Assembly (NCBI GenBank): GCA_003116975.1
Contig: BGKB01000060.1
Span: 62,001-126,000 of the forward strand
DNA: 64,000 bases
Direction of reading: 5' to 3'
From: Aurantiochytrium sp. KH105
Taxonomy: Eukaryota; Sar; Bigyra; Thraustochytrida; Thraustochytriidae
In this document: piece after piece, positions 46,179 through 60,303 of the stretch
How the letters are laid out: each line of letters starts with the position of its first letter
How positions within the stretch are numbered: position 1 is the first letter of the stretch
Program-made: the position numbers and the translations under genes
The notes under the pieces: generated by a model
Database searches by the model: none
What the model was told of the DNA's origin: nothing
What the model saw: only the letters and a program-made list of their open reading frames with translations

Positions 46179-49100
46179 ATGACGTCCAAGGACGATGGCG
46201 AGGTCACAGAGAGCGGCTCCACCGGTAACCTTGGAGAAAACCATCTGCAGGTCCATTCCGGGGAGACGCTGCACAAGGTGGGCAAGCAAGAGAGTGTATT
46301 CGACTGGATTGAAAAGTCGTACATTAAAGCGAAGGATGCCGCCGCAGGCGTCCTGCTCTTGCTCTCACGCGAATGCGGCAAGTCACATTCCAGTGCGCAT
46401 CTCGGCATCATCATCGAAAGCATTCAGTTGTTTACCTTTGCGCTCTCGCCCATGCTCGATGCGGACGATGAAGCATCGACAACGAGTCAAGTCGGGACGG
46501 CGCCAACGAATGGCAGTATTATCGAGAACATGGTCTTCTTTTCCGACGTGAGTAATCTGCTCATGTACTTCATTGGGTACGAGCTTTGCCTCTTCCTGAC
46601 CGTCTCAGCGGTCATTGTCTTCCTTCTCAACGCCCTCTATGTCGCTTATGGCTGGTCAAATACCTTTAACGTCCTCTGGCCGATCAAGGTCTTACGACTT
46701 CAGGCCAATGTGCTCATTGGGCTGGCGTTCATTCCAACCATCCAGCTCATGGCGCTTATGTTTAGCTGCTCAAGTTTTGATCTCAACTGCACAGCATGGC
46801 AGCCACTCGTACTTACCTTGTCCATCTTTTATATTCTTCTCGCCATCGCGATTGGCTCGACGTACTTTGACCCAATCGTGACCTCGGAGTCGCCGCAGGC
46901 ATCGGCGCACACGCGCATCACAGTGTTTAACATTCTCGCCAAGATCGTGCTCTCCGCCGTGCATGCTGTGTGGGACAGCAATGCAACTCTCCGAAGCTCG
47001 TTTGCGGCCGAATTAAGTCGGCACCTGCTCCTCATCGGATTTTCCTCGGCCCTCAGCTACCTCTACGTCTGGTATCAGCCCTATTACCACTACAAGATGA
47101 ATGTCCTCTCCGGGGTCACCTCGAGCATTCTTTTGTGGTTTGCGGTTTCCATGTTCGTGCGCTGGATCAAAATCATGCTCGGGGACCCTAACGCTGTGGG
47201 TGCGTTGGAAAACTCTGCAACGAGCATTGATAGCACGCGGGCCGCTCGTGATGTATCAGTGGCGCTCGTCACCGGGGCTTTTCTGGTGGTTCCCTTGACG
47301 ATCTTCATGATCGAATACCGAAAGCGAGCGCTGGCCAAAAAGCCTGTATACAGACTGAAAAACGCCTATGAGTTCGAGCTCAAAATTCGAAACTATCTGC
47401 GAGACCATCACCCAATCTTCGCGCAAACGCATCACAAGGCGTCCTCGATCAAACCCTTGCTCAAGGACAGTGATGCGATGAACCACCCGATTGATGAAGA
47501 CAGTAGCGACGATGAAAGCGATGACGAGGATCAACAGCCGCTGTTTGCACGAGAAAGCAACGTTTCCAACGTCAAAGATGACAAGAACGCGGGGCATCGG
47601 CGCCGCAAGCAAGATAGGGTCCTCACCAAAGTGCAAAAGCTTTTCGAGAGTGCCATCTCGCAGTTTCCTGGATCGGCGCAGCTTCCGATGTTCATGATCT
47701 ACTTTTTTAAGACCTTTTACGAAAAGGAGCAGGGCATCGTGCTGAGTCGCAAGGCCATCTTGATTGCGGCGCGGCGCAAACCGTGGTTCGACCTCGAGTT
47801 TGGCCTGTTCAAGCTGCAATCGGAGATTAAGCACAACGTCTCCACGGGTAAGGAGGTTGTGTCCTTTGTTGCGAGTGAAAAGTACGAACGCGAAGCCAAG
47901 AACTACGACCGCCAATCATGCTGGCACCTGCTCGAATTCTGGAGCGAGCTTTCCGCGAGCCATCCGGACATGACGCGCGTTCAGTCGCTCGCCAAGGCCG
48001 TTGCAGAATATTCTGCAAAGGCGCAAAGCGCATATCTACGTCTCACGCGACTTCAGCCCAAACAAGCGCGGGTCCTCAAGCTGTACAGTGGCTTTCTCAA
48101 TGATGTCGTCAATGACCGGACCGCAGGACAGCATGCCATGTCGAGGGCTATCTCATACGAAGAAGACAAGACTTCGGGAAACGCCAACAATGGGGGGCCG
48201 CCTGCCGCAGCGGGATCGACCGAGAACCCATTGTCAACCCAGCTGCACAAGTTTGACCCTGTCATGGTCTTCGAAATTAGCGAGACCACGCAACACGGAA
48301 CTGGCTTTGGAGAAATCTCGTATGTCAATTCTGACGCGGCATATGTTCTGCAAAACGCAAGTCAGAAGCTGGTTGGTCGCAGCGTGATGGAATATCTTGT
48401 GCCGCCTTTTTCTACGCACTTGAAAGGCATCGTCGCGGCCTTCTTTCTCGAAGGGCGGAGTCCGCTATTTGGAAGGAAAATTGAGACGTTTTGCGTCTCG
48501 TCACGTAAAGACTGCTTTCAAGTAACGATGCAGCTTTCGCCTTACACAACTGACGGCATCAACTTCACCATGTTTCTTTCCTTTGTGCCGAACGAAAGAG
48601 CGCTTCGGGAAGCGCAATTTGGTTTCGGCGAAGACGTTGCAAACCAGGGCTTCTTCCTCTTTTCAGACCAATATGAGCGAGGACATGTCATCGCTGCCTC
48701 TGACGCTGGCTCATTCCTCCTTGAAAAGTTCACGACCCTCCTCGATACACACGCCATGCTCGCGGGCTCTACGATCGAGCTCAAGGATATTATTGAGGAC
48801 TCGGAGAACATGATGGAGCGCGCTCTTGCGACAGGCGACTTTGTGGACGTGTCGCTGTGCAGTCTTCGTCTCGACTATGAAAACGAGCTGCATTCGACGG
48901 AACTCAAGGTGCAGGAGTTCAACTATGAGGGATTTCGCATCCAAAAGGCAACAATCCGGGTCCTGACAAAGGAGGCCGCGGCCATGCGAATGCAGCGCCG
49001 AGGAAGCGCAGCGTCCCCTAATGACCTGGAGAGTTTTCCTTCCAATGCTACCTCGGATGACTTTTCGGACGTATCCAAGAATGAGAGCGACGACAAATTT

Positions 49101-51644
49101 GCCTTCTTGAGCCCAACCATTGGCATTTCCAACGCTGCACCGGCACTCGTCAAGTCACCTGGATCGCGGTCTGGCAGCTCCGTTGGTTCCGGCAAGTCTG
49201 GTGGCTCGCAGTCGACTGTCGCGGGAATGTACTTGAGGCGGCTTCTGCAGTCCGAGGGAACAGGCAAAAAGATGTCGCCGCAGCTGCAACGTCTCAGTCT
49301 AGTCTACGTCATTTGTCTGCTGGTTGTCGTGGCATGCTCACTCGTTTATTACGTGATCCAAGAGCGAAATCTTGACCGGTACGCGTCTGAAGTCGCTTTT
49401 TTGAATAGGGCCGGATTCCGCCGTTTTAATGCAGTCTCGCTGGCATATTGTACGCACTGCCTCGTGCTCTTGAATTTGGGTGTCACTCTTCCCAGTGCTC
49501 TTTCCGAAGAATCTCTTCGCGCGGAGCTAGAAACAAATATGGCAAGCTTGCGCGATATTGAAAAGGTCGCCTTTAGCATGCGCACGTACTCTGCTGAAAT
49601 CGAGGACGTGTACAGCATTGGAAATACCGCCCTAAGCGTGCTCAATGGAGAGAACGCGCGCTGGGAGTACACGAGTCTATATGACGCAACAAGCCTTGTC
49701 ACAGGTGCTGCGACAAATCTGATTGACTCGCCGCTCGAAATGTTCACGCTCGACAACCCCAACGTGCACATGGTCCTCACGCAAGTTTTGGGGTCTGTTT
49801 CGTACCTGCAGGATCTCAATAGAACGACATTTATGTTTCAGAACCTGGCCGAGAGCGAGATCCACACACTCGTTCCAATTTTTTGGACATCGGTGGGTAT
49901 TGCAAGCTTCATGCAGACCTTGCTTCTCGCGTACTTTATCTGGCCCCTGGTCAAACTCGTGGAGAGAAACAAGCTCGAGGTTCTCGAGGTTCTTCGTTCT
50001 ATTCCACCCAAGTCCATCGCAACCATTTCGCTGCGCTCCCGCAATCGCCTGCTCGAGGTCCATGAGGTGGCGAACGAGGTGCTCGAAAGCCAACTCAACA
50101 ACTCGACCTGGGACACGCAGCGAAAAATTACGGGGTTGCTCGACAAGTCAGACGGATCAGGAAGCGGAAAGAAACGTAAGCGCTCGGAAAAGTCCAAGGA
50201 CTCCCCTAGAAAGATGGTCGAGAAGCGTCTCGCGGACTCTGTCATACGGGCCAGTGCTACAGAACCGGGGAACGCCAACACGCTTCTAACAGGTGAGGAC
50301 AAGCCTCGAAACCAACTCGCGCGAAAGGATAGTGGAAGCAGCGAGGAAGCAAATAGCAGCGCCAGTAGCGACAATGACGAAGCCAAAAGCAGCAGCAGTG
50401 ACCAAATCATGAACATGGCGACCGAGGCGAGGTCGCCACCCAGCCCGATTGGAGAGGAAGAGGTTGAGACCGAGAAATCGACGTCGAAAGGTTTGAGCGG
50501 AGGGCTTGTTGCATGGTTTCGAGGCGATCATGAAGACGACTCCGATAACGAAGATGAATTCAGGTACAACAGAGGAATCGGAAGTAGAATCCTTTCGGTG
50601 CTTGGGACTCCCTTCTACAAGTGCGGATCCGGCATGAGGCAATTCAAGCGTTGGATGCGACAACTTTGCGCTCCAAAAGTCAAGACCACGCCAACAGCTC
50701 CCGTTGTAGCTCCTTTAGACCGTCAAGACACGGATTCAAAGCTCGAAGCGCGACTTCGCAAAACGCAGACAGACTTTTCCGTACAATTGCGCGTCTTGGC
50801 AAAGATGGCCGTCCCTGCACTTGCCGCTTTTCTTTTTTACGTGCTGAATTATACGCTTGGGTTCTACCTGAACATCAACTACCTTTTGCGCGTGCCGACA
50901 TCGGTGAACTTTTCCGGGCTGAGACGGGCCACCCTTCGTCTCATCAAACACGTACTCTTTCTCTATCTTGCAGGGACCTCGATGGAGGCCGGTGACCCGT
51001 ATTCTGCATCGCAGGGCAACGTCTCGCACACAGTTGGCCTGTTTGAACACGTCAACAACGTTCTCTTTCATGGCCGGCAGAATGATGAGGGCCTTTTGCG
51101 CGTGAGCAGCGACCAAGAGCAAATTACTCTTTTGCTGGAGAACGGCTGCTACAACTGGCCTGGGAGCGATTTAACCGTTTGCGAGACATTCGAAGACGGA
51201 ATCATGAATGGTGGACTCATGACGGCCACAAGACAATTTCTAAAGAACTTTGTCACCGAGCTTCACGCAGCGCCGCCGCTGGACTCTTCGGAAACCTCCT
51301 TTGCCGGGTATTTGCTTGTACCAGAGGAGCTTGAGTCTCTTCTGGTACTTGAAGAGAGCTTCCTTCAGGTTCAGTACACGACTTCCGTAAAACTTTATGT
51401 AAAAGAGGTGACCGAACAGCTTGACGCAGACCGTCTCACGCGCAACATTATTCTGGCTGCATACCTGACTACAATTCTGCTGGTGTATATTTTACTCGTG
51501 CGCGGGATCATCCGAAGTCTCGACAATGAGTTAAAGCGGACGCGACGCCTTTTGCTTATGGTGCCCGAGGAGCTATACAATCGATTGCCAACGCTGCGCA
51601 AGTTTATTACACGCGAATTCAAGATCGGCAAACGCAGAAACTAG
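46179..51644 (+). CDS. Giant TmcB-like PAS multi-TM protein, copy 2 (1821 aa)
   Basis: One open frame runs from the ATG at 46179. The order matches copy 1. The N-terminal TM bundle (about 75-375) has IGSTYFDPIVTSESPQASAH. After an acidic linker, the TmcB-type region (about 484-620) has AISQFPGSAQLPMFMIYFF and GKEVVSFVASEKYEREAKNYD. The PAS domain (about 690-780) has VMVFEISE, FGEISYVNSDAAYVLQ and GRSVMEYLVPPFSTH. Then come a Ser-rich stretch, a TM at about 1040 (VYVICLLVVVACSLVYYVI), an extracytoplasmic segment starting FLNRAGFRRFNAVSLAYCTH, a TM pair at about 1235-1260, and a long acidic/basic cytoplasmic loop roughly 100 residues longer than in copy 1. A second outside domain (LLRVPTSVNFSGLRRATLRL) and a last TM close it. 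The two 'NFSGLRRATLRL/NLGGLRRATLRL' modules are the best-kept parts. Function probably sensory (inference). Confidence 0.85.
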   Translation: MTSKDDGEVTESGSTGNLGENHLQVHSGETLHKVGKQESVFDWIEKSYIKAKDAAAGVLLLLSRECGKSHSSAHLGIIIESIQLFTFALSPMLDADDEASTTSQVGTAPTNGSIIENMVFFSDVSNLLMYFIGYELCLFLTVSAVIVFLLNALYVAYGWSNTFNVLWPIKVLRLQANVLIGLAFIPTIQLMALMFSCSSFDLNCTAWQPLVLTLSIFYILLAIAIGSTYFDPIVTSESPQASAHTRITVFNILAKIVLSAVHAVWDSNATLRSSFAAELSRHLLLIGFSSALSYLYVWYQPYYHYKMNVLSGVTSSILLWFAVSMFVRWIKIMLGDPNAVGALENSATSIDSTRAARDVSVALVTGAFLVVPLTIFMIEYRKRALAKKPVYRLKNAYEFELKIRNYLRDHHPIFAQTHHKASSIKPLLKDSDAMNHPIDEDSSDDESDDEDQQPLFARESNVSNVKDDKNAGHRRRKQDRVLTKVQKLFESAISQFPGSAQLPMFMIYFFKTFYEKEQGIVLSRKAILIAARRKPWFDLEFGLFKLQSEIKHNVSTGKEVVSFVASEKYEREAKNYDRQSCWHLLEFWSELSASHPDMTRVQSLAKAVAEYSAKAQSAYLRLTRLQPKQARVLKLYSGFLNDVVNDRTAGQHAMSRAISYEEDKTSGNANNGGPPAAAGSTENPLSTQLHKFDPVMVFEISETTQHGTGFGEISYVNSDAAYVLQNASQKLVGRSVMEYLVPPFSTHLKGIVAAFFLEGRSPLFGRKIETFCVSSRKDCFQVTMQLSPYTTDGINFTMFLSFVPNERALREAQFGFGEDVANQGFFLFSDQYERGHVIAASDAGSFLLEKFTTLLDTHAMLAGSTIELKDIIEDSENMMERALATGDFVDVSLCSLRLDYENELHSTELKVQEFNYEGFRIQKATIRVLTKEAAAMRMQRRGSAASPNDLESFPSNATSDDFSDVSKNESDDKFAFLSPTIGISNAAPALVKSPGSRSGSSVGSGKSGGSQSTVAGMYLRRLLQSEGTGKKMSPQLQRLSLVYVICLLVVVACSLVYYVIQERNLDRYASEVAFLNRAGFRRFNAVSLAYCTHCLVLLNLGVTLPSALSEESLRAELETNMASLRDIEKVAFSMRTYSAEIEDVYSIGNTALSVLNGENARWEYTSLYDATSLVTGAATNLIDSPLEMFTLDNPNVHMVLTQVLGSVSYLQDLNRTTFMFQNLAESEIHTLVPIFWTSVGIASFMQTLLLAYFIWPLVKLVERNKLEVLEVLRSIPPKSIATISLRSRNRLLEVHEVANEVLESQLNNSTWDTQRKITGLLDKSDGSGSGKKRKRSEKSKDSPRKMVEKRLADSVIRASATEPGNANTLLTGEDKPRNQLARKDSGSSEEANSSASSDNDEAKSSSSDQIMNMATEARSPPSPIGEEEVETEKSTSKGLSGGLVAWFRGDHEDDSDNEDEFRYNRGIGSRILSVLGTPFYKCGSGMRQFKRWMRQLCAPKVKTTPTAPVVAPLDRQDTDSKLEARLRKTQTDFSVQLRVLAKMAVPALAAFLFYVLNYTLGFYLNINYLLRVPTSVNFSGLRRATLRLIKHVLFLYLAGTSMEAGDPYSASQGNVSHTVGLFEHVNNVLFHGRQNDEGLLRVSSDQEQITLLLENGCYNWPGSDLTVCETFEDGIMNGGLMTATRQFLKNFVTELHAAPPLDSSETSFAGYLLVPEELESLLVLEESFLQVQYTTSVKLYVKEVTEQLDADRLTRNIILAAYLTTILLVYILLVRGIIRSLDNELKRTRRLLLMVPEELYNRLPTLRKFITREFKIGKRRN

Positions 51645-52010: not shown

Positions 52011-54862
52011 CTAGAGCACTCCCTTGGTGGACGGAACGCCCGCGCTTGCATCCGGAGAGATGGACATGCGAAGCGCCACCGCCAACGCCTTGAAGCCCGA
52101 CTCGGAACGGTGGTGATCGTTTTCGCCGTGCAGACAGTGGACATGCACGGTGAGACGCGCAGAGGTGACAAACGATTGCACAAAGTGCGTGAGCATCTCC
52201 GTGGAGATGGTCCCGATCATCTCGCGCCGGAAACCAAATTGAATTTCGGCGTAGGGACGGCTGCTGATGTCGACCACCGCCCGGGACAAAGCCTCGTCGA
52301 GAGGGCAGAGGGCATAGCCCCAGCGCACGATGCCCTTGCGCGAACCCAGCGCAGCATCAAAGGCCTCGCCAAGCGCGATACCAACATCCTCGGCCGTGTG
52401 GTGGTCGTCGATCCAGAGGTCGCCAGTGCAGCGCACATTAATGTCGACGCGAGAGTGCTTGGCCAGGGCCTCAATCATGTGATCAAGGAAACCAATTCCT
52501 GTGCTCACATCGGCGGCGCCAGTGCCATCAAGATCGACGCTGACAGCAATGGACGTCTCCTTTGTCTTGCGCTGCACAGCGCCTTGGCGTGCACCGAGGC
52601 TAGCATTGCCCTTAGACTTGGTACCCGCGCCCATGGGCGCAATACCAGGTGTTCCAGCGGATCCAGGAGCAGCCACGACAGCCGCCTTCGACATAGGAGC
52701 CTGAAAGACCTCGAGAAGATCAACAAAGCCCGGCGCGAGTACTTGCGCTGCGCCGGCACTGTAGAGAGCGCCCTCTACGATTTTGGCAGACTCCGCAGTG
52801 GCCCCCGGGGTAATGACACCGACAGCACGAACGCCAGCCGCGCAGGCAGCCCGCATGTCATCAGGGGTATCACCGACCATGACAGCTTCGGCCGGGTCGA
52901 CGCCTCCAAGACGCTCGAGCGCAAGACGAACCGGTGCCGGATCTGGCTTTGAGGGTGCCTCGTGCATGCACACCATGATCGGCTGACCTGCTCCGTCCGA
53001 AACGAGGGAACGCAGGTTGTACAAATCGAGAAAATAAAGAGCCTCATCGCGAGGGCGGCCAGTCACGATAGCAATGCCAAGAGGAGCGCGCTTGCGCAGC
53101 TCGACGAGGAGCGCGCGCGAGGGAATAAGGCTCTCCAGGTCACGCAGCCCCGTTGCGGTGCTCGTACCGAGGTAGAACTCTTGAAATTTAGCGGTGATGG
53201 TCTCCAGCGAAGGAGCATCCGAGAGCTTGGCAGCGACAAGCTTGTGAGTGAGTTTCCAGTCGTCGTTTGCGTCGCCTTCAAGCTTGGCTGCCTCAATGTC
53301 AGCCGAAGTGACCTTGACGCCAAAGGAATCCGCCGTACGGATGATGGCCTGGCGGTATGATTGAGATACCTCGGCCAAGACACCGTCCATGTCGAGAAGA
53401 AGAGCGCGAGGGGGGCGTTGCGCAGCTTGGGGCACGTTCCCAGCGGCCGCGGCCCCGGGCATCGGCGTTGCAGGAACGTCAAGGTCACGCATGGCGTCGA
53501 GAAGCAGGTCGGTGTCGCGAGGGCGGCCACAGCTGATGCGAATGTAGCCCGCAAGAGCGCCCTTGGGATAGTAGCGCACAAGAACGCCACGGCGACGCAG
53601 CTCCTTGTGCAGCGTGCCCGCGTCCATGGGTGCGTTGACCTTGAAGAGCACAAAGTTTGCAACGGAGGGCACTGGAGTGAGCCAAGCGAACTCCTGGAGC
53701 AGGACAAGCATTCTCGTGCGCTCCGCGAGAATTGGCTTGATGTGCTCTTCAACGATCTTGTCTTTGACACGAAGTGCAGCGCGCGCCGCGGCTTCAGTGG
53801 CGACGTTGATGTTGTAAGGCTGCTTGATGGAAAGAAGTTTCTCGGTGAGCTTGGGATGAGCCACGGAGAAGCCTACGCGAAGACCAGCGAGACCGGCCCA
53901 CTTGCTAAAGGTGCGCAGCACAACAAGATTCGGAAACTCGTCCATGAGACCCACGGCGCTTCCGCCGCTGAACTCGGCGTAGGCCTCGTCGACAACGAGG
54001 ATGCAGTTATGTGCGCAGATCTTGCGGACCTGGTCCTCGGTCATGAGACCGCCCGTGGGGTTATTGGGAGACGCAATAAAGACCAATTTACCGTTGTGGT
54101 TGTCCACTTGGTCGATGATGCCGTCGACGTCAAGGTCAAAGGCCGGGGCGTTGATTCGTGGGACCTCCAGAACTTGGGACCTTGCGATCTTGCCAAGAAA
54201 CGAGTACATGCCAAAGGTGGGCGGGGCGGACACAATGCCAGCGCCGGGCTCCACAAGGCGGATGAGAAGATCGAGGAGCTCATCGGAGCCTACGCCCGCG
54301 CAGATGTGCTCGGGGCCAATGCTGCCACCGATGTACTTTGCCAGATCCTGGCGCAGGTAGGTCTGCGCGGGATCCGGGTAGATGTGCATGTACTCGGTGT
54401 TGCGCACGGCCTCGATGACCTCCGGCATGGGGCCGTAAAGGTTCTCATTGGCGTCTAGCTTGGCCAGGCGTTCAATCGGAACGCCGACTTCTGCAGCCAC
54501 CACATCGAGGGGCTGGATGGGCGAGTACCTGTTTTTCCGTCGCGATCCCATGCAGGCCACGTTAGTCTATGATTTCCTTCCCTCCCTCCCTCCCTCCCTC
54601 CCTCCATCGCTCTTTCCCTCCCTTCCCCCACCACCTCCGCGCTCGAGCTCCTCGCCAGCCGCCTGCACCACCTCGCGCGGCGCTTCTCCGCTTTGCCGAG
54701 CGCCATCGATTCGTCCATCCCTCGACCATTCCCTCCCCTCCCCTCCCTCGCATCTCCTCTCTCCGCCCTCGCCCGCGCGGCCGCGGCCGGCGCGGGGCGC
54801 ACGTACTGCGGCAAGTCCAGGAAGTCGCTGCGCACGAACTGCAGCGTGGGGTCGGTCGTCAT
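52011..54862 (-). CDS. Trifunctional histidine biosynthesis fusion: HisC aminotransferase, HAD phosphatase, HisB dehydratase
   Basis: Exon 1 is 54862-54807 and exon 2 is 54528-52011. The 278-nt GT-AG intron contains a CCCT tract. The join ([10 protein letters not shown] then [10 protein letters not shown]) recreates a HisC N-terminus and gives 857 residues. Residues 1-370: PLP-dependent histidinol-phosphate aminotransferase, with [15 protein letters not shown] and Schiff-base lysine in [14 protein letters not shown] (about Lys228). Residues about 394-630: HAD hydrolase with DMDGV nucleophile motif, TGRP and KPDP...MVGDTPDDM. Residues about 673-857: imidazoleglycerol-phosphate dehydratase with [19 protein letters not shown] and [16 protein letters not shown] metal sites. 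Together these would cover IGP to imidazole-acetol phosphate (HisB), to histidinol phosphate (HisC), and plausibly to histidinol (HAD part). The phosphatase role is inferred from position. Confidence 0.93.
54577..54605. repeat. (CCCT)n tetranucleotide tract inside the histidine-gene intron
   Basis: About seven units, read as AGGG on the transcribed strand, within the 278-nt intron. Confidence 0.85.
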
Positions 54863-55290: not shown

Positions 55291-58200
55291 TCAGCGGCGG
55301 GTCGGCTGCAAGTAGTGCGGAAGAGCCCAGGCCACGGCTCGCTGCTGGTAGCGACGGAAGCAGCGCTGGATTCGAGCTGCGGCGGCGCGGCGCGCAGCGC
55401 GACGGCTCAGCTCGCGCGAGACGCACCCTCGCCACGCAGCCTGGATCAGAACAGCAGCGCGCACACGGCGAGCATGGAGAATACTCTTCTGTAACCGGAT
55501 TTCCAGGGCAGCCCGTGACAATGTGCCTTCGCCATGCGAAAGTTCCAGGATCTCCACAATCTCGGCTTCTAGCGTGGCAGAGAGATCAATTTGGTCCTCG
55601 GGCCGCAGACCGCAGTGACGCAGACGCAAGGCTTCCTGCTCAAGGCGGCAGAGCAGCCTACGAGGATATCTGGCCAGCGCTTGCGCAGACGCGTATGGTG
55701 TCGCCGCAACTGGACCCAAGGTCGCAATGGCGTCACGGAATCGTGCCTCGTATCGATCTGCCCCAAGACGAAGATCTTTGCAAAGCAAGTCACGCGTCTC
55801 TAGGGCTGCTCGCAAACGATCATTCTCCCTTTCCATCTGTAAAAGTCTCTCAGCACTGTGAATGCGCGCGAAGCGTGGCGCAAGGCCAGCATCGAGGTCT
55901 GCAAGCTGGGCAGCAAGGCCGTGTCCTGTTAAATCTGTAAAACACCGACCTGCGTGCACCAGAACACGCACGAGCGGTCTACCTGCTGGCATCGCGAGTG
56001 TCGCAACTGTCTCGAGGTCATTCGCTGCGTTGCCCGAATGCGCTTCGTAGACGATGAGTACCGCACGAGCGACTTGCAAGCCACGTTTGAGGACATCTGC
56101 GTTCAGGTCCCCGGAAACAGGGCAATGCCACGACTGCAAGCTGGCAGTTTGGAGCTCGCTCGCCGCAAAATGTGCGCCCTGCCGTCCTGCGTCAGAGTCG
56201 TTGATTGACACAATTGCAACAAATGGCACGTTGGCAGCTTTTAATCGCCCGAGCTCGAGATGTGGTCGCGCATGACTCAGCTCTTTGGCCAACTTCTTGC
56301 GCAATTCAAGCTTGGCGGCTTCGAGAAGGTTGTCTAGCTGGACAAGCATCTCTCGAAATGCGTCTTGACTCGATCCTTGGGGGACAGGCCACTGCTGATC
56401 AAGCACCTGCAGCAAGGTGGGGCGGAATCGCCGCATCGAAGCGGCTCGAAGCGCAGGGGCGACCTGCGAAGATTTGGTCATCGCAATATTCATTTGTTGG
56501 TGCGGTTGCTCTCCTGCTTGATTTGACGAGCTGGATTCTGTTTCTTGTGCGGCGGCGATCTTGTCCCAGTGAAGTGCTGACGAGGCGGCCCAATCGGACA
56601 GATCGAAAAAAGGAGCGCCACGAAAGACCGATGGGCCAGAGAATACCTTGGCATCAAGTCTTGCATCGCAGCTGATCACCGCCAAGGGTGCATCATGAGC
56701 GATAGATGCAGGGGCGATTGCTTTGCGCGCAGATTTCACGATGTTGATGAAGTGCAACGAACGCGCCGTGTCGCGACTCGTGATGGCAAGAACAAGATGC
56801 GCACGAAATTCGCCTTGCTTCACAAGTCGAAGGGTCTCTTGGTCATTCGATGTTGCAAACACGACGTTAAACTCCGTTTGCGATTTCAGTTCCTTCACGA
56901 ATCGCACCCCAAAGCGAGTCTCTGCTGGGTCTGGACCAGTGATCACCAGGATATCTGCCGTGCTTGCTGCGCCCACGATCTCATGTCGCATCCAGTCTTG
57001 GAAGAAGTAGGCGCCAGGGATTTTGCCATGGCCATCTTTGGCGAAAATGCTTGCCCCATGATGCACGAGAAGGAGAGCGAGAGCCAGGTCATCTTGGCGC
57101 GCAGCCAGATGCAGCGGATTTTGCCCAGTTCGGTCCACAAGATTTACAGGGGCCTCCATCTCGAGGAGAGCACAAAGCGCCTCTGCATCTCGCTGAGCGA
57201 CCGCAGCGTGAACGAGACTTTGTCGTGATTTCGGGCAACGGGTCTCCAGCAGATCTGCGTCGAGAACGCCCGTGTCCACGGCGAGAAGAAGACGACGCAG
57301 CGCTGCGATCGCACCACTGCGCACGGCGACTTGAATTGCATGAGCAGCGCTTGAAGCAGACGAATTTGACGGCATGTTATGCGTCTCTGCAGCTTGTAAA
57401 GTCCGATTGGTGCTCTCATTCGCTTCGAGACGCTGACGAATGATGTCCGTAACGTCGGGATGGCTCGTCTTGCAAATGCACCTTACTGTATCGAGCTGCA
57501 AACGAGCTAAATGGATGCTACGGCGAAGGGCCTGAGCCCAAAGGTCAATGCTCGCACAACTAAGAGTATTTTGGCTCAAATTAAGAGCCCAGAGCGAAGA
57601 GCGAGCTGGACCGGAATGTGCACTGCTGCTTTCGCTCCCCGGAGAATCCAGGGCTCCGCTAGAAATCTGTTCTGGACAGTTTGGATCACGGACGGCTTCC
57701 GCCGACAGGAAGACGTCAGCAAGAGCGGCGATTCCAGATTCGTCGGTGCCACCGTCGCTGAGGTCATTGTCTGCAAGGTCGAGTTCGTGCAATGTGCAAT
57801 GCGCCGGGTTTCGCAAAAGTAAGGCAAACGAACGCGCCCCGTCTGCTCGAAGCTTGTTTCCCGCAAGCGCAAGGGATCGGAGCGCGGTGTGTGGCTCACA
57901 ACTCTCGCGCAGCGTGGAGGCAATACACTTTGCACCTGATGACCCCAAGTCGTTATAAGAAAGGACGAGGCTTCTTAGAGATTGACTCTTGCACACGCCA
58001 CGGATAATGTCGACGAGACCATCTTCACTTTCTCCGTAGTCTGTCAGGCAATTGCCTGCGAGGTCGAGATGGTGCAGCTGCCGGTGTCGGGGAAGCGCTG
58101 CGGCAAATGCCTCTAATGCCTTTCGGGCAGAGAAAATATGACATGCCGCCATGCCCGTGAGGCTGCATCGCGTCAGTCGAAGGGTCTGCAGCACATCGTT

Positions 58201-58521
58201 GTGCGGCAAGAACTTGGCAATGACGGCGAGGCCCTCGTGTCCTACAGGGTTTCCGGTGAGGTCAAGCTCGACGATTCTCGCATTTTTTGCCAAGCTTTCA
58301 AAAAGGCACTGCGTTCCTTTGATACCAATTGTATTTTCGCGCAGACTGAGCCGTGTCGACGATAGATTTCTCGCTAGCGGCGGCGCGAGAAAGTGCTCCA
58401 CGAGGTCGTCGCTGACAGCAAGGCCGTCGAGCTCGACGTTGTCGGGCGAGGTGTCCTTGGCGAGGGCCTCGGCTGCGGCACGGACCCTTGCGCGAGTCTC
58501 GTCTCTGTTGGCTGCGGACAT
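55291..58521 (-). CDS. LRR - ankyrin - two TIR-like domains - IQ motif protein
   Basis: The protein has 1076 residues from the ATG at 58521; upstream frame opens only from TTG. Residues about 50-345: RNI-type leucine-rich repeats (STRLSLRENTIGIKG, LHHLDLAGNCLTD, LRSLALAGNKLRADGA, LHELDLADNDLSDGG). Residues about 395-510: ankyrin-like repeats (SLVHAAVAQRDAEALCALLE, GQNPLHLAARQDDLALALLL). Residues about 520-645 and 765-860: two alpha/beta segments reminiscent of TIR folds (ADILVITGPDPAETRFG; VPFVAIVSINDSDAGRQGAH, ARAVLIVYEAHSGNAANDLE). A helical region follows, then IQ-type calmodulin motifs at about 1020-1060 (AAVLIQAAWRGCVSRELSRR, AARIQRCFRRYQQR). LRR and ANK calls are firm, IQ good, TIR-like tentative. 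Probably a cytoplasmic, calcium/calmodulin-linked sensor or scaffold (inference). Divergent from CLN3. Confidence 0.82.
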   Translation of the reverse strand: MSAANRDETRARVRAAAEALAKDTSPDNVELDGLAVSDDLVEHFLAPPLARNLSSTRLSLRENTIGIKGTQCLFESLAKNARIVELDLTGNPVGHEGLAVIAKFLPHNDVLQTLRLTRCSLTGMAACHIFSARKALEAFAAALPRHRQLHHLDLAGNCLTDYGESEDGLVDIIRGVCKSQSLRSLVLSYNDLGSSGAKCIASTLRESCEPHTALRSLALAGNKLRADGARSFALLLRNPAHCTLHELDLADNDLSDGGTDESGIAALADVFLSAEAVRDPNCPEQISSGALDSPGSESSSAHSGPARSSLWALNLSQNTLSCASIDLWAQALRRSIHLARLQLDTVRCICKTSHPDVTDIIRQRLEANESTNRTLQAAETHNMPSNSSASSAAHAIQVAVRSGAIAALRRLLLAVDTGVLDADLLETRCPKSRQSLVHAAVAQRDAEALCALLEMEAPVNLVDRTGQNPLHLAARQDDLALALLLVHHGASIFAKDGHGKIPGAYFFQDWMRHEIVGAASTADILVITGPDPAETRFGVRFVKELKSQTEFNVVFATSNDQETLRLVKQGEFRAHLVLAITSRDTARSLHFINIVKSARKAIAPASIAHDAPLAVISCDARLDAKVFSGPSVFRGAPFFDLSDWAASSALHWDKIAAAQETESSSSNQAGEQPHQQMNIAMTKSSQVAPALRAASMRRFRPTLLQVLDQQWPVPQGSSQDAFREMLVQLDNLLEAAKLELRKKLAKELSHARPHLELGRLKAANVPFVAIVSINDSDAGRQGAHFAASELQTASLQSWHCPVSGDLNADVLKRGLQVARAVLIVYEAHSGNAANDLETVATLAMPAGRPLVRVLVHAGRCFTDLTGHGLAAQLADLDAGLAPRFARIHSAERLLQMERENDRLRAALETRDLLCKDLRLGADRYEARFRDAIATLGPVAATPYASAQALARYPRRLLCRLEQEALRLRHCGLRPEDQIDLSATLEAEIVEILELSHGEGTLSRAALEIRLQKSILHARRVRAAVLIQAAWRGCVSRELSRRAARRAAAARIQRCFRRYQQRAVAWALPHYLQPTRR

Positions 58522-58875
58522 GCGCGAGGCACCGTGGCGCGGCGCAACGGGGTTGGCCTCGCGTGCGTCGCGCCACTTTGTTTCATGAGACGGTTCTCCT
58601 ACGTTTCCTCGGGCACGTTTCTGCGACGGCAACTACTTTCACGGCTCGCGAGGTGCGCGCCGGTCGGTTGGGACGAAAAACCTCGGCCAATGCTGCCGGT
58701 CTCAAGCTGGACCTTGGTCGAGGTGGAGGAAAAAGAGGCGCACAACAGCAACCAACTTGAACGAAGGAGTCAGAGCCCGATCGCGCCGACGCGTGCGACG
58801 CGGGGCGGGCCGACCCGACCCGAAGCGGAGCGGAGCGAAACGAAGCAGAAGCGGCCGTCGGAGATCCCAGACGCC
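58522..58875. promoter_or_regulatory. Short divergent promoter between the LRR-ANK gene and CLN3
   Basis: About 350 bp between ATGs. It is open in frame upstream of CLN3 as far as an ATG at 58588, so part may be an N-terminal extension. No other feature. Confidence 0.45.
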
Positions 58876-60303
58876 ATGCTGCAGCGCGCTGGCGCGAGCT
58901 CCGGGCCCAGCAGCGAGCTCCGGCGGCTTGTCGAGGAAGAAGACGGTGCTCGCAGCGACGTCGCCGCACTCTTGCACGACGGCGAGAACGCCTTGGAGGC
59001 GAGCACCGCCGAAGGCGTCACACGGGGTTCCGCTGGCCGGGAGCCGGGCCTGAGCGCGGGAGAAATGGACGAGGAAAGCCTGCTGGGGACGGAAAGGCGG
59101 AATAATCGTGCTCAAGACTCCGACAAATGGCTGGGGCCTTGCAGCGGAAACGTGAGCGCGACGGCCGTGGGATTTTGGCTGCTGGGACTCATGAATAACG
59201 CCACCTTTGTGATTATGAACGCTGGCGCCAAAGAGATTTTTGCAGAAGGCGTTGGCGGCGTCTATCTCGCCAACGTGCTGCCATCCTTGTTCGTCAAGGC
59301 GAGCGCGCCGTTTTGGTTTCACTTGGTCCCCTACCACGTGCGAATCACACTTTGCGCAGCGCTGACGGTGGCCTGTCTGAGCACTGTTGCTCTTGGGCAG
59401 AGTTTGGGTGTGCAGCTCTTTGGCGTTGCCGTCGGTGCCTTTGCAGGATCTTTGGGGGAGGCCAGCTTCCTTGCATACAGCGCCTTTTTCGATGGCCCGA
59501 CGGCGCTCACGGCGTGGTCGAGCGGTACAGGCTTTGCAGGAGTTTTTGGTTATTTTTGGGTGGTTTTCTTGACCAAAGCGCTTGGATTCACATTTCGCGC
59601 ATCGCTTTTACTTGCCATGGTGCTGCCAGTTGCTTTTTTGTTTGTGTTCTTTCGTATTCTAGCGCCCGCGCGCGCTGCGCGAAGGCCAACGCATGCGGCA
59701 GCGGGACGTACGCGCGAGGCACATCACGACTGGAGTGCATGGGAGCGCGTGCAGATTTTTGCATCCCTTTGGGAGTTCACGGTGCCATTATTTTTGGTTT
59801 ACTTTGCAGAATATGCGATGCAATCGGGAACGTGGGCAGCAATCGGGTTCCCCATTGACAGCAAAGCAGCACGAGACGACTTTTACGTTTTTGCAAATTG
59901 GTTGTACCAAGTGGGCGTCTTTGTTTCCCGTAGCTCGGGGACGCTTTTGCGCCTGAGCAAACGGGACCTCTGGCTCATGCCCGTTTTGCAAATGGTGCTC
60001 TTGGTTTTCTTTACGGCAAATGGGGTCTGGCACTTTTGGTGGAATCAGAGTTTGCTGGCATTGGCGTTCGTGGTGGGTCTTTTGGGCGGGGCGGTATATG
60101 TACACGGCTACATTCTCATTTCGCGAGAGGTGGCTCCGGAACGTAAGGAGTTTGCACTTGCAAGTGCCTCGCTGGCAGACACTTTGGGCATAATGCTGGC
60201 CAACATGACCGGCATCATCATTCAGGGATGTCTGTACGCAGTGAACGACCTTACAGATGAGGGGCGGCCACCCGCATTTACGTGCGGGAAAAAGTATGAT
60301 TGA
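58876..60303 (+). CDS. CLN3: CLN3/battenin lysosomal membrane protein
   Basis: The protein has 475 residues from the ATG at 58876. An upstream in-frame ATG at 58588 would add 96 low-complexity residues and is less likely. A hydrophilic acidic N-terminus precedes about eleven TM segments. Battenin hallmarks are present: FWLLGLMNNATFVIMNAGAK in TM1, SLGEASFLAYSAFF, AWSSGTGFAGVFGYFW, FLVYFAEYAMQSGTW, NWLYQVGVFVSRSSG, and the C-terminal VYVHGYILISREVAPERKEF and ASLADTLGIMLANMTGI. CLN3 is a lysosome/vacuole membrane protein of the MFS fold, required for glycerophosphodiester clearance and luminal pH balance; its loss causes juvenile Batten disease in humans. The C-terminus ends without an obvious CaaX box. 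Intronless. Confidence 0.95.
   Translation: MLQRAGASSGPSSELRRLVEEEDGARSDVAALLHDGENALEASTAEGVTRGSAGREPGLSAGEMDEESLLGTERRNNRAQDSDKWLGPCSGNVSATAVGFWLLGLMNNATFVIMNAGAKEIFAEGVGGVYLANVLPSLFVKASAPFWFHLVPYHVRITLCAALTVACLSTVALGQSLGVQLFGVAVGAFAGSLGEASFLAYSAFFDGPTALTAWSSGTGFAGVFGYFWVVFLTKALGFTFRASLLLAMVLPVAFLFVFFRILAPARAARRPTHAAAGRTREAHHDWSAWERVQIFASLWEFTVPLFLVYFAEYAMQSGTWAAIGFPIDSKAARDDFYVFANWLYQVGVFVSRSSGTLLRLSKRDLWLMPVLQMVLLVFFTANGVWHFWWNQSLLALAFVVGLLGGAVYVHGYILISREVAPERKEFALASASLADTLGIMLANMTGIIIQGCLYAVNDLTDEGRPPAFTCGKKYD

Follow-up and report, generated by a model that had tools for sequence, protein, structure and literature searches.

A HisC-HAD-HisB fusion gene in Aurantiochytrium and a proposed histidinol-phosphate phosphatase function for the family TIGR01548

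Which enzyme converts histidinol phosphate to histidinol in Aurantiochytrium sp. KH105, and could it be the phosphatase-like domain that lies between two histidine biosynthesis enzymes in a single gene? We analyzed a 64,000-nucleotide stretch of contig BGKB01000060.1 of this thraustochytrid (hereafter the window), which encodes on its minus strand, at 52011-54862, a histidinol-phosphate aminotransferase (HisC), a phosphatase domain of the HAD type and an imidazoleglycerol-phosphate dehydratase (IGPD; HisB). The original prediction had read this span as one gene for three consecutive histidine steps, and the span proved to be the entire coding region. Comparison of its sequence with profiles, genomes and solved structures makes us highly confident that the gene encodes a trifunctional HisC, histidinol-phosphate phosphatase (HolPase) and HisB. 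We infer histidinol phosphate as the substrate of the HAD domain, and the proposal rests on domain content and motifs, linkage in bacterial operons, fusion, replacement of the classical phosphatase HisB-N in one order, and a source genome with no PHP-type match and no HisN over its cut-off.

Domains were called with NCBIfam and Pfam profiles and their curated cut-offs. The spliced product, of 857 aa, runs from HisC through HAD to HisB. In the NCBIfam search, the HisC domain (step 7; 53484-54479, minus strand, as are all parts of this gene) matches TIGR01141 with 295.5 bits against a cut-off of 276.55, over profile positions 18-348 of 349. The HAD-IA phosphatase domain, our candidate for step 8, lies at 52842-53405 and matches TIGR01548 over positions 2-195 of 197, with 146.7 bits in the whole protein and 150.3 bits for the middle domain alone (cut-off 140.2). 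The HisB domain (step 6) was placed at 52014-52592 by NF002109 and NF002111, and within it, at 52071-52502, the Pfam IGPD profile PF00475 scores 200.6 bits (cut-off 27) over positions 1-144 of 144. The gap between the profile matches of HAD and HisB (52593-52841) holds, as judged from its sequence, the end of the HAD fold and an Ala/Gly-rich linker.

As proposed here, the C-terminal HisB would dehydrate imidazoleglycerol phosphate, the N-terminal HisC would turn imidazole-acetol phosphate into histidinol phosphate by transamination, and the central HAD would remove the phosphate to yield histidinol. The predicted chemistry of the latter proceeds through an aspartyl-phosphate, with the Asp of DMDG as nucleophile, the Thr of TGR, the Lys of KPD, and GDTPDD for magnesium, and its cap would select the substrate. 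The motifs on which the original prediction relied were found in the sequence: DMDG, VTGR, SKPD and GDTPDD in HAD, the pyridoxal phosphate lysine of HisC within a segment of 26 residues, and DDHHTAED and ENDHHRSES in HisB; their names follow usage in the respective families.

TIGR01548, or HAD-SF-IA-hyp1, is a hypothetical equivalog in NCBIfam, curated without a function; the middle domain of the window gene is a full-length member over cut-off, and the function is proposed here. About 106 residues separate DMDG from TGR, and the relatives of the domain in the PDB include phosphoglycolate phosphatases and beta-phosphoglucomutases. The original prediction had named a grouping with an unrelated family such as phosphoglycolate phosphatase as grounds for refutation, and no such grouping was seen: TIGR01548 is matched over its cut-off, and PGP_bact yields 47.1 bits against a cut-off of 180, so that we rejected this candidate, together with beta-phosphoglucomutase and pyrophosphatase, both far under their cut-offs. 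The domain also falls below the cut-off of the HisB-N-like family TIGR01656 (75.1 versus 84.15 bits). Among 25 of its 28 family matches listed, there was none to the HisB-N family TIGR01261, to the PHP-type TIGR01856 or to the inositol monophosphatase (IMPase)-type TIGR02067.

Across 46 aligned HAD domains, D13, D15, T123, K161, G186, D187, D190 and D191 (HAD numbering) are invariant, and S24, D57, G94 and E99 are among the further invariant residues. When 23 his-linked rows (22 distinct genes) were compared with five other HADs, S24, N55, D57 and E99 were kept in all of the former and in none of the latter, one of which has Asp in the E99 column. Three of these (N55, D57 and E99) map to the stretch separating motifs I and II, the place of the cap in HAD-IA enzymes. 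This pattern bears on the idea that the HAD is a catalytically dead scaffold linking HisC and HisB. Structural domains are, as general knowledge has it, present in some multifunctional enzymes; yet here the four motifs are intact, the catalytic residues do not vary in the alignment, and the two copies of the gene in the genome differ at 51 of 2518 sites of exon 2 but in just 8 amino acids. We consider a dead scaffold extremely improbable.

Among solved structures, PDB 6iah comes closest to the HAD clade profile (93.1 bits); it is named just hydrolase and has most of the signature residues in common with the clade. This entry is probably a phosphatase from Thermococcus and possibly an archaeal histidinol phosphatase. 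A tested HolPase is mentioned for Thermococcus onnurineus in PMC5516325.

We searched for relatives of the HAD domain by a pattern scan of one genome per species in 84,980 species, which detects close relatives only. It returned 70 loci, 63 of them strong (E of 1e-18 or better). HisC and HAD share one frame in 36 of the 63 strong loci, including one (L019) cut by the contig end, and hisC is adjacent to a separate HAD gene in 26, an arrangement that further argues against a mere scaffold. hisB follows directly after the HAD in 60 of the 63, and the remaining three end at a contig edge. In the 7 weak loci of the 70, his context was not found. By record titles, the hisC-HAD fusions come from six phyla (34 loci counted, two without a phylum), and hisC-HAD followed by hisB is seen in Planctomycetota, Myxococcota, Pseudomonadota, Acidobacteriota, Gemmatimonadota and Chloroflexota. 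The guilt by association to which the original prediction appealed is supported, strong bacterial homologues of the HAD lying beside or within hisC and hisB. As to the records themselves, L047 and L048 are one contig under two names, the match, range and contig of L048 (titled Hyphomonas) being the same as those of the Phycisphaerae record L047. L055, titled a Bordetella parapertussis metagenome-assembled genome (MAG), groups with Bryobacterales in the HAD tree; both cases are likely mislabelled bins.

The bacterial loci match the window gene in their three domains and in the order of these, but wherever hisB can be seen among the strong loci it stands as a gene of its own, except in one proteobacterial MAG. 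There, at L034:3043-5346, a hisC-HAD-hisB fusion of 768 aa stands directly behind hisG, and by frame call it begins on the final base of that gene. HAD (149.5 bits) and HisB (239.4 bits) of this fusion score over their cut-offs and its HisC (210.5 bits) under.

Within Planctomycetota, 7 of 148 genomes have a full-length HAD match of at least 88 bits among the matches listed. Two of the seven score over the cut-off, and all are in frames of 581-909 aa; two of the seven genomes (G004 and G018) had served as search seeds. The presence of hisC, HAD and hisB was confirmed in four (L018, L032, L113 and L114). Among the matches listed there is one more as wide as the model, at 30.8 bits in a 250-aa frame, which resembles an ordinary HAD.

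A phosphatase in a his operon could also act on another metabolite, such as a side product or a damaged histidine intermediate, with histidinol phosphate being cleaved by a separate IMPase-like or SerB-like enzyme. SerB-like HolPases have been reported from other bacteria by Price et al., who name four proteins (PMC5764234). Against this alternative, which we judge very unlikely, stands the gammaproteobacterial operon L108, in which hisG, hisC-HAD, hisB, hisH, hisF, hisA-IE and hisD are arranged consecutively, either overlapping or with short gaps between them. Enzymes are present for steps 1-7, 9 and 10; step 8 alone is vacant, and the HAD is the sole domain without a step. The operon would cover all histidine steps if the HAD performs step 8. 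Within it, hisA and hisIE form a single open reading frame (ORF; L108:3024-4259, minus strand); fusions of HisA/F with HisIE are described for four archaeal metagenome assemblies in PMC11237513.

The order around Pleionea offers a second view of the same question, since here the HAD stands in for HisB-N. Of its 59 genomes, 43 have classical HisB-N over cut-off and 8 have a full-length HAD match (85-121 bits), well separated from the next match, which is partial, with 46.8 bits. These eight HADs are in frames of 544-589 aa together with hisC; hisB follows in seven, and the eighth locus breaks off some 130 bases past the match. No genome of the 59 has both HisB-N and the HAD, and eight have neither, two of these being of just 0.3 Mb. 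The one-sided probability of this mutual exclusion is 5.8e-6, or 2.1e-5 minus the seed genome, which had been chosen for its HAD; both values ignore relatedness. The IMPase-like protein of Pleionea (L123) is SuhB (350.9 bits, with a cut-off of 332 for inositol-1-monophosphatase) and not HisN.

Does the source genome contain another HolPase, as the original prediction had cautioned? HisC and HisB are found over cut-off once each per gene copy, and HisD is present. The PHP-type family TIGR01856 has no match in this genome, and the HisN family TIGR02067 has none over its cut-off (best 111.3 bits versus 275.15); SerB-like enzymes were not searched. Nor are there other TIGR01656 matches above 33 bits. 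The 111.3-bit match (L007), together with IMPase-like matches in 47 of 50 genomes carrying homologues of the HAD, is what would favor a separate enzyme. The top PDB relative of L007 is, however, human IMPA2, inositol monophosphatases are nearest to it, and among its 21 PDB matches none has the name HPP, HisN or histidinol-phosphatase; we therefore rejected it as a true HolPase. In the 50 homologue genomes no protein scores over the HisN or the PHP cut-off, and weaker matches are present in 47 and 22 of them, respectively. Four IMPase-like proteins from these genomes were examined, of which the Pleionea protein and L126 (from G018) fit inositol monophosphatase better than HisN.

Genetic findings in Haloferax volcanii point the same way. 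PMC4300041 reports histidine auxotrophy for two identical insertions that it assigns to HVO_0431, a HAD gene, and a review (PMC8305020) proposes this gene, without a characterized homologue, for the vacant HolPase step. HVO_0431 resembles the window domain in being a HAD, reportedly needed for histidine synthesis and proposed as HolPase, but it is not described there as fused. TIGR01548 was matched at E 1e-9 in 3 of 14 control genomes (Escherichia coli, Synechococcus elongatus and H. volcanii), with two of the three over cut-off. We infer that S. elongatus and H. volcanii are the two in question, with HVO_0431 as the family member in the latter. The S. elongatus match is probably over cut-off and a candidate for the HisN gap. 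The description of TIGR01548 presumably mentions haloarchaea, cyanobacteria and Phytophthora. A search of plasmid records for haloarchaeal or cyanobacterial members gave one weak match. GapMind (PMC7311316) reports the HisN gap of S. elongatus PCC 7942 as unexplained, and HolPase as the commonest low-confidence step, affecting 42 of 148 microbes able to grow with no amino acids supplied. In Thalassiosira pseudonana, HolPase is not annotated according to a diatom review (PMC3901274).

Several observations weigh against a HolPase function for the HAD. In 17 of the 50 homologue genomes there is a HisN match of 178-204 bits (cut-off 275.15); the 17 comprise all 14 Acidobacteria-type genomes together with G018, G021 and G050. 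Two Acidobacteria-type proteins among those examined, L124 and L127, favor HisN, with about 203 bits versus 92-101 for IMPase models, and the nearest PDB relative of L124 is 5yht, a solved histidinol-phosphatase. Their genomes carry hisC, HAD and hisB side by side, and some Acidobacteria that carry the HAD may therefore own a second HolPase; the curated HisN cut-off of 275 may miss true members. HisN beside His(NB) is noted for two families in PMC5516325. One of the 63 strong loci, L028, has no hisC within 2.8 kb upstream. In the operon L108, three domains are under cut-off: HisC (205.1 versus 276.55), HisA (165.4 versus 228.95) and the HAD itself (107.0 versus 140.2). The eight HADs of the Pleionea order all score below the TIGR01548 cut-off; in the HAD tree they fall into a single clade, perhaps the outcome of one event. 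Finally, Table 5 of PMC4300041 gives for HVO_0431 the site 1,198,248, five bases from the HVO_1312 site (1,198,243) and at odds with the order of locus tags, so that a table error is possible.

With respect to known systems, the closest parallel is E. coli HisB, his(NB), in which a HAD phosphatase likewise lies N-terminal to IGPD, for steps 8 and 6. The HAD of the window gene, in contrast, belongs to TIGR01548, of subfamily IA, and the window gene adds a fused HisC. SerB-like, PHP-type and IMPase-type HolPases share the proposed reaction but have other folds or belong to other HAD branches. The five his fusions listed by Fani et al. (2007) do not involve hisC, and their study found HisNB in no eukaryote (PMC1963479). 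A different fusion, of seven domains, is described for Acanthamoeba (PMC6029752). The domains listed for Phytophthora proteins in PMC7295944 include a TIGR01548 HAD, which lends indirect support to the belief, voiced in the original prediction, that oomycetes have related fusions; the gene model may well have gone unremarked within oomycete annotations. Within the open-licence literature, we found neither a description of a HisC-HAD-HisB fusion, nor TIGR01548 named as a HolPase, nor an enzyme assay for this clade.

Did the three domains come together as one unit? We compared those of the window with 10 fused bacterial loci. For HisC, the median identity between the window and the loci is 30.2%, versus 47.0% among the loci themselves; the corresponding values are 49.7% and 55.5% for HAD, and 53.4% and 64.3% for HisB. 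In HisC trees, the window HisC groups with stand-alone HisCs, outside the sampled fused clade. The quick tree weakly rejects its forced placement in the fused clade (p 0.038 and 0.043); the careful tree does not (p 0.276 and 0.142). As the test on the careful tree does not establish it, a separate origin of the window HisC from HAD and HisB is a suggestion. The planctomycete locus L113:5574-7841, with hisC, HAD and hisB all in frame 3, has a fused HisC outside the main fused clade in FastTree; it was left out of the rows for both the quick and the careful constraint trees. In the HAD tree, which carries a long-branch warning among its five outgroup rows, the window HAD is placed beside mainly Gemmatimonadota fused HADs, with support of only 81/70 and an unsettled bootstrap.

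The structure of the gene departs in one respect from the original prediction, which took it for a single-frame gene. HisC, HAD and HisB are joined in-frame, but across two exons rather than in one unbroken ORF. In the splice model, exon 1 (54807-54862; 56 nt) comprises the start codon, the first 18 codons and two further nucleotides, encoding the N-terminal arm of HisC, and exon 2 (52011-54528) encodes the rest of HisC, HAD, HisB and the stop codon. Between them lies a GT-AG intron of 278 nt (54529-54806), called from its sequence and from divergence between the two gene copies, with GTACGT at its 5' end, CAG at its 3' end and ACTAAC 32-37 bases ahead of its last base. The source genome (76 Mb, 367 contigs) has the second, near-identical copy on contig C1. 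Between the two copies, none of the 56 sites of exon 1 differs, while the intron has 27 differences in 250 sites and 32 gap positions; with the exon 2 counts given above, this divergence agrees with the splice model and with purifying selection. Paired copies are likewise seen for HisD and for most matches to aminotransferases and IMPases, and the two copies are therefore most simply two haplotypes. A chance open frame was ruled out by the three curated family matches, the splice sites and the second copy. Adjoining the gene in the window, at 55291-58632 (minus strand), is a protein of 1113 aa with leucine-rich repeats, ankyrin repeats and an IQ motif; a membrane protein of the CLN3 (battenin) family (Pfam, 279.5 bits) is encoded at 58393-60303 (plus strand), and an 1821-aa protein with a TmcB-type TPR domain at 46179-51644 (plus strand).

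Taken beyond this gene, we think it likely that TIGR01548 represents one more class of HolPase, widespread and arisen from HAD-IA phosphatases independently of HisB-N and of the SerB-like enzymes, that fills the step in haloarchaea, some cyanobacteria, several bacterial phyla and the lineage of this eukaryote, and that was joined to HisC more than once, in the window gene as part of a trifunctional enzyme. If this is true, a hypothetical family would gain a function, the HolPase step would be closed in several phyla, and false predictions of auxotrophy would be removed; two distinct branches of HAD would each have been joined to HisB. Histidine synthesis is reported as a target for herbicides and for agents against Acanthamoeba, so that a eukaryotic lineage with a phosphatase type of its own would be worth knowing.

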